DNA of 64,000 nucleotides, taken from contig NZ_NJAG01000045.1 in NCBI RefSeq assembly GCF_002872335.1, forward strand, positions 248,001 through 312,000, written 5' to 3'. The notes below the pieces were generated by a model. That model had not been told where the DNA came from and did not search any database. It saw only the letters and a program-made list of their open reading frames with translations. Positions 20,274 to 21,914 of the stretch are shown here, one piece after another (the first letter of the stretch is position 1; every line of letters starts with the position of its first letter). The position numbers and the translations under genes were made by a program. Source of the DNA: Siphonobacter sp. BAB-5405. GTDB taxonomy: Bacteria; Bacteroidota; Bacteroidia; Cytophagales; Spirosomataceae.

Positions 20274-20602
20274 GTACTTGCTAAGGTTTCTAATTGAAAA
20301 AATAGAGTTGCTTTTAAGCTACAGGTATGACGTAAAGCCTCTCGCTTCCCGGATACGAATGATAAAGAACTGTTCCCATAGCGTACGGATGAAGTTGCAC
20401 CCCCCACCACTAGCTGTGCCTGGGGACTGGACAGGGGTACGGTCTGCCTATGGCAAGTCCATACGCTATTGATCGGTAAAGTGGTTTCGGGACTTCGTTC
20501 CAGAAAATCGGAAAAGATGGCTGATTGAATGGAGTACGCCAGATCAACAGGCAAACAGGCCAGTTTCGATGCCAATGAAGGAAAATCAGAAAAATTGCCA
20601 TA

Positions 20603-20635
20603 TTGTTGTCGAATATAATATATTTGTGACAACAA
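20603..20635. promoter_or_regulatory. Palindromic operator spanning promoter of VOC-EVE-MarR operon
   Basis: TTGTTGTC (20603-20610) and GACAACAA (20628-20635) are exact inverted arms around a 17-nt AT-rich spacer. The spacer holds TATATTTG (20619-20626), a perfect TAnnTTTG -7 box, only 20 bp before the VOC start. TTGT/ACAA arms are typical of MarR-family sites and a MarR gene is last in this operon, so autorepression is the likely logic. The remainder of 20274-20602 shows no gene I can support. Confidence 0.7.
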
Positions 20636-20646
20636 AAATCAATGCA

Positions 20647-21009
20647 ATGAGAAAATTAGCATTTGCTTCCCTTCAGGTAAGGGATCTGGAAATCTCCAAA
20701 ACGTTTTACATCACCCAACTAGGGTTTGAAGAAGCTGGAATTCCTAACCCTCAGGCTTGTGTATTTCGCTATAACCAGGGCGAGGCCAGCTTTGCCATCC
20801 GAACGCCCCTGAGTAATCTGGAAGGAAAAGAGCTGGGTATCGGTACTTCCCTCTGGTTCGCCATCGATGAAGCAATTGAAGACCTCCAGGCTCAGTTAAT
20901 AGCCAGGAATGTGCCCCTGCTGGGACCGATTCAGGTAACGCCTTTCGGGAAAATCCTGGTTGTCAGCGACCCCGATGGATACAACATCACCTTTCTGAAA
21001 GCAAACTAG
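20647..21009 (+). CDS. VOC-superfamily protein (glyoxalase/bleomycin-resistance fold)
   Basis: 120 aa. It has the two beta-alpha-beta-beta-beta halves of the fold: FASLQVRDLEISKTFYITQLGFEE at the start and the closing FGKILVVSDPDGYNITFLKAN. The metal and substrate residues cannot be assigned with confidence. The frame extends upstream to 20569, but ATG 20647 is the natural start because it lies just past the operator and begins the first strand. It leads an operon with an EVE-domain protein and a MarR regulator, which suggests detoxification of a small molecule sensed by MarR. Confidence 0.85.
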   Translation: MRKLAFASLQVRDLEISKTFYITQLGFEEAGIPNPQACVFRYNQGEASFAIRTPLSNLEGKELGIGTSLWFAIDEAIEDLQAQLIARNVPLLGPIQVTPFGKILVVSDPDGYNITFLKAN

Positions 21010-21019
21010 CCTGATCGGT

Positions 21020-21466
21020 ATGAACAGCGAACCCAAATACTGGATCATCGTAGCATCGAAGGATCATGTCAAAACCGGACTTGCCGGGGGCTTTGCTCAG
21101 GCCTGTCATGGTAAGGCGTCACCTTTGAAAAGAATGCGTAAGGATGATTTCCTGATTTATTATTCGGGAAAGCAGACGATGGGAAGACCCGAAGCGTGCC
21201 AGGAATTTACTGCCATCGGTAAGGTTGTGGATGACGAAGTGTATCAGGTCCGGGTATCCGAGGACTTTTGCTCCTCCAGACGTACCATTGAATTTTTGCC
21301 GGGTAGGGATGTTTCCATTTTGCCCTTACTTTCGGGATTGAATTTTATCCAAAATAAGAAAAGCTGGGGCTATCCATTCCGTTTTGGTTTTTTCGAAATT
21401 GATCGGCATGATTTCGAATGGATCGCTTCACGCATGTTAACCGAAGACGATGTCCCAACGCATTGA
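21020..21466 (+). CDS. EVE-domain protein (UPF0310/DUF55)
   Basis: 148 aa. The fold's landmarks are YWIIVASKDHVKTGLAGGFAQACHGK, LKRMRKDDFLIYYSGK, EFTAIGKV and SSRRTIEFLPGRDVSI. EVE domains are PUA-like and are known to bind modified bases in DNA or are implicated in RNA modification. The gene begins 10 bp after VOC and its last 17 bp overlap the start of the MarR gene, so all three are translated from one message. A role in nucleic-acid modification sensing is family knowledge; its link to the VOC partner is unknown. Confidence 0.88.
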   Translation: MNSEPKYWIIVASKDHVKTGLAGGFAQACHGKASPLKRMRKDDFLIYYSGKQTMGRPEACQEFTAIGKVVDDEVYQVRVSEDFCSSRRTIEFLPGRDVSILPLLSGLNFIQNKKSWGYPFRFGFFEIDRHDFEWIASRMLTEDDVPTH

Positions 21467-21914
21467 ATTTCATTTTAAAAACCCCGAAGACAGTCCGGGT
21501 TTTCTTCTGGGGCAACTGACCCTACTGTGGCAGCGGAAACAAAAGCGGGTCCTGGATCCTCTGGACCTAACGCATACGCAGTTTGCCCTGCTCTGTGCTC
21601 TGGCCTGGCTGTCGAGGGAAAGTGATCAGGTCACGCAGGTTGACATCGCCATGCAGAGCAATGCGGATCGGATGATGGTATCGAAAGTACTGCGGACGCT
21701 GGAAGAGAAGCAGTTCATTACCCGTCAGGAACATCCGACCGATACCCGGGCGAAGACAATCAAATTGACTCCGGAGGGAGAACGGGTACTGCAAAAAGCC
21801 ATTGTCAGCGTAGAAACGGCCGATTTGGAGTTCTTCAATCAGATAGGAACCGATGTACAAACGTTCAATGCAACCATGGCAGCACTGATCAAAGAAAATG
21901 CGAAAGAAGCGTAA
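21450..21914 (+). CDS. MarR-family transcriptional regulator
   Basis: 154 aa winged-helix regulator. The DNA-binding core is LTHTQFALLCALAWL ... TQVDIAMQSNADRMMVSKVLRTLEEKQFITRQEHPTDTRAKTIKLTPEGERVL, with the wing Asp-Thr-Arg that is conserved in MarR. It has no N-terminal redox Cys of the OhrR type; the only Cys is at about residue 50. It overlaps the EVE gene by 17 bp. It probably represses its own operon through the palindrome at 20603-20635. Confidence 0.9.
   Translation: MSQRIEFHFKNPEDSPGFLLGQLTLLWQRKQKRVLDPLDLTHTQFALLCALAWLSRESDQVTQVDIAMQSNADRMMVSKVLRTLEEKQFITRQEHPTDTRAKTIKLTPEGERVLQKAIVSVETADLEFFNQIGTDVQTFNATMAALIKENAKEA

Follow-up and report, generated by a model that had tools for sequence, protein, structure and literature searches.

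A conserved 33-bp palindrome as the putative MarR operator of a VOC-EVE-MarR operon in Siphonobacter and related Bacteroidota

Background

In the genome of Siphonobacter sp. BAB-5405, a stretch of 64,000 nucleotides (hereafter the window, meaning this whole stretch) contains three adjacent genes encoding a VOC-fold protein, a stand-alone EVE-domain protein, and a MarR-family regulator, preceded by a palindrome that surrounds the promoter. The locus raises the question of whether the operon is controlled by the product of its own last gene through this palindrome, and what the two other proteins contribute. An initial annotation, made from the sequence alone, proposed MarR control of the operon and considered the arrangement non-standard, in that it would link a putative reader of modified bases (EVE) to a detoxification enzyme (VOC). 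The arrangement itself turned out to be on record already: Bell, Wolf, and Koonin described MarR-EVE operons with an SRPBCC, EhpR, or VOC ligand-binding gene in 2020, VOC often taking the place of SRPBCC (PMC7641849).

Results

Organization of the operon and its promoter

The two arms of the palindrome (20603-20610 and 20628-20635) are complementary at 8 of 8 positions around a 17-bp spacer, and the right arm ends 11 bp before the VOC gene. The spacer carries a -7 box of the Bacteroidota consensus TAnnTTTG, an element located at -12 to -5 according to PMC9723704. The three adjacent plus-strand genes are closely packed, with a VOC-EVE gap of 10 nt and an EVE/MarR overlap of 17 nt, and each product exceeds its Pfam cut-off: Glyoxalase (PF00903) for the VOC protein, EVE (PF01878, 59.1 bits against a cut-off of 23), and MarR (PF01047, 48.6 bits against 24.6), the structural model of the last showing a helix at residues 74-86 and two wing strands. 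Direct reading of the sequence together with the Pfam matches thus confirmed the layout first annotated, i.e., a palindrome around the -7 box followed by VOC, EVE, and a terminal MarR gene. The features are as follows.

20595 to 20597, plus strand: possible weak -33 element (TTG), 21 bp 5' of the -7 box; read from the sequence, tentative, and absent in some relatives
20603 to 20635, plus strand: putative 33-bp operator, TTGTTGTC-N17-GACAACAA; an exact palindrome in the sequence, with the same site in front of 58 distinct operons and with arm covariation
20603 to 20620, plus strand: putative MarR site 1, 18 bp (arm, 2 bp, inner half at 20613-20620), placed by analogy to the DPMTTS class described below
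20618 to 20635, plus strand: putative MarR site 2, 18 bp, with a 3-bp overlap with site 1, placed by symmetry; its inner half is the -7 box
20619 to 20626, plus strand: -7 box TATATTTG (TAnnTTTG, Bacteroidota sigma-A), read from the sequence and conserved in the alignment; consensus from PMC9723704
20631, plus strand: predicted transcription start, giving a 16-nt leader; placed from the box position in PMC9723704
20647 to 21009, plus strand: VOC-fold protein of 120 aa, probably ligand-binding and metal-free (PF00903; alignment; model pLDDT 89.5)
21020 to 21466, plus strand: stand-alone EVE-domain protein of 148 aa (PF01878; NF002616, PRK02268.1-2, 172.7 bits against a cut-off of 139)
21450 to 21914, plus strand: predicted MarR-family repressor of 154 aa (PF01047; model pLDDT 93.5)
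21669 to 21707, plus strand: MarR recognition helix alpha-4, residues 74-86, beginning RMMVSK (DSSP of the model); correlates with the operator arms

The palindrome is not read here as an RNA hairpin because the predicted transcription start lies within the right arm, which would leave the left arm untranscribed. An AlkB-like 2OG-Fe(II) oxygenase gene (PF13532, 19650-20273, minus strand) is divergent to the operon; it was dropped as a candidate part of the system, none being found besides the window's own copies in 139 loci with flanks of 1.5-3 kb.

Conservation and covariation of the putative operator

The palindrome alone carries little weight because, with nested cases each counted on their own, the window contains 109 inverted repeats that have perfect 8+8 arms and spacers of 0-25. 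Only the repeat at 20603-20635 encloses TANNTTTG on either strand, and in 30 block-shuffled windows such cases averaged 0.17, with a maximum of 3. In the 6.49-Mb genome of the strain there is one exact site for the arm pattern; the second-ranking place differs at 2 positions and lacks a -7 box. At up to 3 mismatches the pattern occurs at 14 places, fewer than the 24 obtained with the reversed control, and we attribute these loose matches to chance.

Judged from comparative sequence, it is conservation and not palindromy that makes the operator convincing. The site lies in front of 58 distinct MarR operons, mostly from Bacteroidota, a set drawn from 86 loci whose MarR has an identity of 50% or more, after removal by hand of L022, L105, L127, L138, and L139 and merging of identical flanks. 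Its copies form 54 distinct 33-mers, each sharing 21-32 of its 33 bases with the consensus; the reversed-consensus control for this 33-bp consensus has a mild self-similarity flaw like that of the reversed-arm control discussed below. The operator of L109 was missed by the -7 filter, yet it is included in the 58-operon alignment and in the helix/arm count. Counting duplicates, there are 58 rows out of 70 in which the operator starts 43-49 bp 5' of a VOC, EVE, or MarR start, and in further rows it is found close before other first genes. Positions T7, T14, A15, T17, A18, T19, and C28 are invariant in the alignment.

The arms also change together. Pairing is kept in 90.5% of the arm cells, and five pairs have changed on both sides, for example TTGTAGTT/AACTACAA (L007), ATGTTGTC/GACAACAT (L050, L059), and TTGTTGTT/AACAACAA (L062). 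Eleven cells are doubly changed compared with a shuffled mean of 2.9, and 0 of 500 shuffles reached this number, a count that is not a probability since the sequences share history. Sliding the register by -3 raised the covariation score (0.155 compared with 0.110 in the true register), which we attribute to the repetitive arms, and the doubly changed cells fell from 11 to 3. No covariation was detected at the inner pairs, those inside the arms.

Search of 390 genomes independent of MarR

When 390 genomes of the order were searched for the 33-bp pattern without reference to MarR, 26 had a match with up to 3 mismatches. Sites with up to 2 mismatches were present in 13 genomes, all of them belonging to the 16 whose MarR is at least 63% identical, and all 13 near-exact sites are located on the same strand within 1.7 kb upstream of this MarR gene. 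The remaining three MarR genomes (G442, G105, and G021) have altered arms (L115, L002, and L007, respectively). The other 13 matching genomes contain 3-mismatch matches only, away from this MarR; the reversed control pattern also matches 14 of the 390 genomes, and a wrong-spacing control (a 32-bp pattern with one N fewer) matches 14, all with 3 mismatches. No second near-exact site was listed in any of the 13 genomes or found in the strain's own genome, which points to an autoregulator acting locally and not to a regulon; a wider regulon was accordingly rejected, no near-exact site being present at other genes in the 390 genomes.

Correspondence between recognition helix and arm sequence

A second cassette class, mostly SRPBCC-EVE-MarR, has the arms TAATAAGT/ACTTATTA. 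Arm type and recognition helix were compared in 93 loci (13 duplicates, identical proteins, and proteins below 110 aa being left out, and the window's MarR appearing in the tree only, as row W). Among the 60 loci with a D[R/T]MM[V/A]SK helix (residues 73-79), the arms are TTGTTGTC-type in 55 and of the other type in 0, and 5 gave no call; among the 27 with a DPMTTS helix, 24 are TAATAAGT-type, 0 TTGTTGTC-type, and 3 gave no call. Six loci carry a [K/R]MMTSK helix, with one TTGTTGTC-type and five no calls; three distant ones (L025, L026, and L136) show, by eye, a compact 18-bp palindrome, NNGTAGTC-NN-GACTACTA. The no-call D[R/T]MM[V/A]SK loci include L002 and L115 (R74T with decayed arms), L079 (11/16), and the EVE-truncated L022; in L127/G130 the site lies past the end of the locus but was recovered in the scan of 390 genomes. 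In L022 residues 1-45 are missing from the EVE match and no operator is detected, while the MarR is intact, which looks like a deletion.

With 200 shuffled arms, the threshold was reached in a mean of 0.74 loci and a maximum of 6, versus 56 and 26 of the 93 loci for the two genuine arm types. Two of the 26 TAATAAGT-type matches belong to D[R/T]MM[V/A]SK loci (L046 and L078), with a score of 12 at about 1.55 kb upstream, and apparently arose by chance. Shuffled arms replaced a reversed-arm control that had reached a score of at least 12 in 40 of 93 loci and was invalid, since the reversal of TTGTTGTC agrees with TTGTTGTC at 6 of 8 positions.

In the MarR tree, the D[R/T]MM[V/A]SK and DPMTTS types form one clade each (with modest support for DPMTTS, 88/91) and the third type is scattered, so the helix/arm match represents approximately 3-4 clades or events and not 79 independent ones. 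At this level of comparison the arm sequence tracks the MarR recognition helix with no crossed case, and the two main events agree fully. The compact TAATAAGT-class pattern was not found with up to 1 mismatch in the strain's own genome. That genome also encodes a lone MarR paralogue with a DPMTTST helix (L139, C187:53278-53691; 52% identity over the aligned part), without a recognisable TAATAAGT operator and without EVE; by eye, a luciferase-like oxidoreductase gene is divergent upstream of it.

Arm covariation, the helix/arm match, and the near-exact sites upstream of the same MarR gene all support the control by MarR that was first suggested, and it is very likely that the operon is repressed by its own MarR protein.

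Geometry of the site and number of dimers

In the DPMTTS class, positions 1-18 form a compact palindrome that scores 13-16 of 16 in 22 of 24 loci (L133 and L137 score 12/16, and their best placement is doubtful). A third half-site is present at positions 26-33, and TATATTTG is found exactly at 17-24 in 15 of the 24 loci. According to PMC6798810, the sites bound by MarR proteins measure 16-20 bp, and that of MhqR is a 9-9 bp repeat which overlaps the start site. Since 33 bp exceeds the length covered by a single dimer, and given the geometry of the DPMTTS class, we infer two overlapping 18-bp sites, at 1-18 and 16-33, whose centres are 15 bp (approximately 1.4 turns) apart; the evidence for two MarR dimers on these sites leaves the case about evenly balanced. 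The doubt comes from the TTGTTGTC class, in which the inner half-sites are weak and asymmetric and the inner pairs do not covary.

These weak inner halves would fit a single MarR dimer bound at a time to one arm and an inner half, or another regulator, the second arm being an extra contact or a remnant, and the loci L025, L026, and L136 with their compact palindrome alone would fit as well. We consider this unlikely, because both arms are conserved and covary, the near-exact sites adjoin MarR, and the arms switch with the MarR helix. The six Capnocytophaga loci (L073, L074, L086, L091, L093, and L101) also speak against it: their three half-sites keep the 33-bp frame, with the third at 26-33 matching at 6-7 of 8 positions, even though TAnnTTTG is found at 32 or 35 and not at 17, i.e., 15-18 bp further downstream. 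As the half-sites stay in place while the -7 box moves, the frame seems to be set by the protein and not by the promoter, in what are six close relatives. The arrangement with two dimers is retained below.

The VOC protein as a binder or an enzyme

The aligned VOC proteins (that of the window and 25 relatives) all have F6 and T115, and at residue 68 they carry Ser or Ala, with a single Gly. We take positions 6, 68, and 115 to be the His/His/Glu-type metal-ligand positions of metal-dependent VOC enzymes (GlxI, FosA, extradiol dioxygenases); such ligands were not found in the 26 proteins at these presumed positions. In a profile search, 3ghj ranked first, and EhpR (E 9.7e-5), glyoxalase I (2.5e-4), and TnmS3 (3.4e-4) were also matched. 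The 50 best fold matches are tied (Z 14.7 to 12.6) and comprise TnmS1-3, UcmS2, bleomycin- and zorbamycin-binding proteins, and EhpR, but also FosA. The drug-binding rows are 12-24% identical to the window's VOC protein.

The missing metal ligands and the drug-binding relatives make ligand binding the likelier function on sequence and fold comparison, so the initial view of the VOC protein as a detoxification enzyme loses ground, although enzymes are also found among its structural relatives. It could still be a true enzyme (a glyoxalase, thiol transferase, or ring-cleavage dioxygenase) in an operon for electrophile or quinone detoxification like the MhqR, CatR, and QsrR regulons. The residues at the three positions and the arms, TTGTTGTC and TAATAAGT, which by eye are unlike the MhqR operator TATCTCGAA, render this reading quite improbable, against the glyoxalase I and FosA matches and the DoxX, Flavodoxin_2, and NmrA genes held by related cassettes. 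In its favor, MhqR and QsrR regulons include quinone reductases and ring-cleavage dioxygenases (PMC6798810). We prefer a binding protein; that it sequesters an aromatic compound is a reasoned guess, held at slightly less than even confidence, for which TnmS proteins offer a parallel in sequestering tiancimycin, an anthraquinone-fused enediyne (PMC9854587).

EVE, gene order, and exchangeable parts

The initial annotation suggested looking for the three-gene order elsewhere in Bacteroidota, and it was found repeatedly. In the family sample, EVE was matched at E 1e-10 in 26 of 150 genomes, and the 28 EVE loci comprise 9 VOC-EVE-MarR, 5 EVE-MarR in which the first gene is a different one or missing, and 14 EVE without this MarR. 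Among the best 80 of at least 527 confirmed EVE relatives, a choice biased toward close relatives, 35 loci are VOC-EVE-MarR, 30 are EVE-MarR without VOC directly upstream, and 15 have EVE without this MarR, such that MarR is directly downstream of EVE in 65 of these 80. The organisms include Dyadobacter, Emticicia, Chitinophaga, Pedobacter, Flavobacterium, and Reichenbachiella, and a few records carry labels outside Bacteroidota (L038, L098, and L109). L109 and L098, labelled Thiomicrorhabdus and Zetaproteobacteria, have VOC-EVE-MarR in the same operator frame with imperfect arms, which reflects either transfer out of Bacteroidota or a binning error.

In the order sample of 16 close MarR operons, a VOC match is present in 15, and EVE is found in the examined flank of 10; it is absent from that flank in G020, G089, G097, G130, G157, and G424, so the emphasis first placed on the EVE link is not borne out. 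The gene next to the operator also varies: besides VOC it can be DoxX (Pfam match in L064, L086, and L095, resemblance in L067 and L071), DUF2798 (Pfam match in L078, resemblance in L079 and L090), SRPBCC (L018, PF10604, an SRPBCC-type family), DinB-type (L129), Flavodoxin_2 (L091), or EVE itself (L005 and L055). NmrA lies between VOC and EVE in L053, and the first genes of the Capnocytophaga cassettes include SRPBCC-like, DoxX, and Flavodoxin_2 genes. By gene content, MarR and the operator are the constant unit, the first gene is exchangeable, and EVE is optional, most of the loci having been found via EVE or MarR.

EVE might instead be the key effector, with recognition of modified bases in defence or repair as the purpose and MarR plus VOC as the sensor arm. 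EVE is the gene common to the survey in PMC7641849, and EVE-MarR is kept with varied first genes (the 30 of the best 80 loci mentioned above), but the six close operons with MarR and no EVE in the examined flank, the lack of any PADLOC match for EVE or VOC, and the divergent AlkB-like gene not seen in relatives leave it little probability. An accessory role of EVE is preferred. As to other candidate assignments, the cassette was not matched to a known defence system, PADLOC giving only weak CARF-/CasR-type matches for MarR, nor to plasmid carriage, with no match among plasmid records.

The MarR proteins of Siphonobacter, Chitinophaga, Pedobacter, and Dyadobacter are intermixed in the tree. This intermixing and the patchy occurrence of the cassette (EVE in 26 of 150 family genomes) suggest, at the sequence level, that it has spread horizontally.

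Discussion

Proposed mechanism

We propose that the operon is an autoregulated chemical-response cassette, a reading that we regard as probable when taken as a whole. In the resting state, MarR, the product of the third gene, would occupy the 33-bp palindrome, most likely as two dimers on the overlapping 18-bp sites, covering the -7 box and the start site and keeping the operon off. A small toxicant, probably aromatic or quinone-like, would enter the MarR pocket and release the repressor without cysteine chemistry; a conserved thiol switch is argued against because no invariant Cys exists in 29 MarR proteins, while the ligand class is a guess from the neighbouring genes. The VOC protein, the first product and probably metal-free, would then bind and sequester the compound, and EVE may serve as an accessory, perhaps a reader of damaged or modified nucleic acid. 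Of the initial interpretation, MarR control and the gene order are supported at the sequence level, and the novelty of the arrangement, the VOC detoxification enzyme, and the weight given to EVE are not.

More tentatively, as a possibility we rate somewhat below even, the locus may represent a plug-in cassette for chemical defence in Bacteroidota, made up of a constant MarR with a 33-bp double operator, on which two overlapping dimers would sit around the promoter on nearly opposite faces, an exchangeable front gene (VOC, SRPBCC, DoxX, DUF2798, or quinone-reductase-like), and an optional EVE. The half-sites would be rewritten together with MarR residues 74-79 (RMMVSK with TTGTTGTC, PMTTST with TAATAAGT, and perhaps [K/R]MMTSK with NNGTAGTC) within a fixed frame.

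The analysis takes a gene association that was catalogued without a mechanism and makes it a unit of regulation that can be tested, with a defined operator, moves the functional guess from an enzyme to a ligand binder with EVE optional, and predicts a recognition code in which residue 74 and the next helix turn would correspond to half-site bases. A promoter reporter offers a clear route to the inducer. If the two-dimer reading is true, the site would provide repression in a compact form suited to the -7 promoter of Bacteroidota.

Comparison with known systems

The locus is ordinary in gene content and its operator is well supported. The systems in PMC7641849 have the same three components, within a cluster that includes Bacteroidetes, and the window's operon agrees with them in its EVE-MarR pair and in the adjacent gene for a small-molecule-binding domain, here VOC. 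The main text of that paper contains neither "operator" nor "palindrom", a literature search on EVE with MarR returned no published operator of a MarR-EVE system, the papers listed in a weak search by arm sequence were unrelated, and a very narrow query returned no published two-dimer MarR operators; the gene arrangement is thus known since 2020 and the operator was not found in print. Relative to the account in PMC7641849, the present work adds the conserved operator, half-sites linked to the recognition helix, cassettes without EVE, and the further first genes DoxX, DUF2798, Flavodoxin_2, and DinB, with NmrA inside one cassette.

For the VOC protein, EhpR, TnmS1-3, and the bleomycin-binding proteins are alike in fold and similar in size, with EhpR and TnmS also matched by profile; the low identity and the tie of their fold rows with other VOC proteins set limits to this likeness. 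The closest regulatory parallel is MhqR of Staphylococcus and Bacillus, an autorepressor with a palindrome at the start site and non-thiol sensing of its ligand (PMC6798810, PMC12893000). The two share the MarR family, the start-site palindrome, an alpha-4 helix predicted to read bases, and quinone-related neighbours. They differ in that MhqR has an 18-bp operator of another sequence, its dioxygenases are enzymes, and EVE does not figure in the MhqR descriptions cited here, whereas the Siphonobacter cassette would combine its 33-bp operator with a binding protein and an EVE domain.
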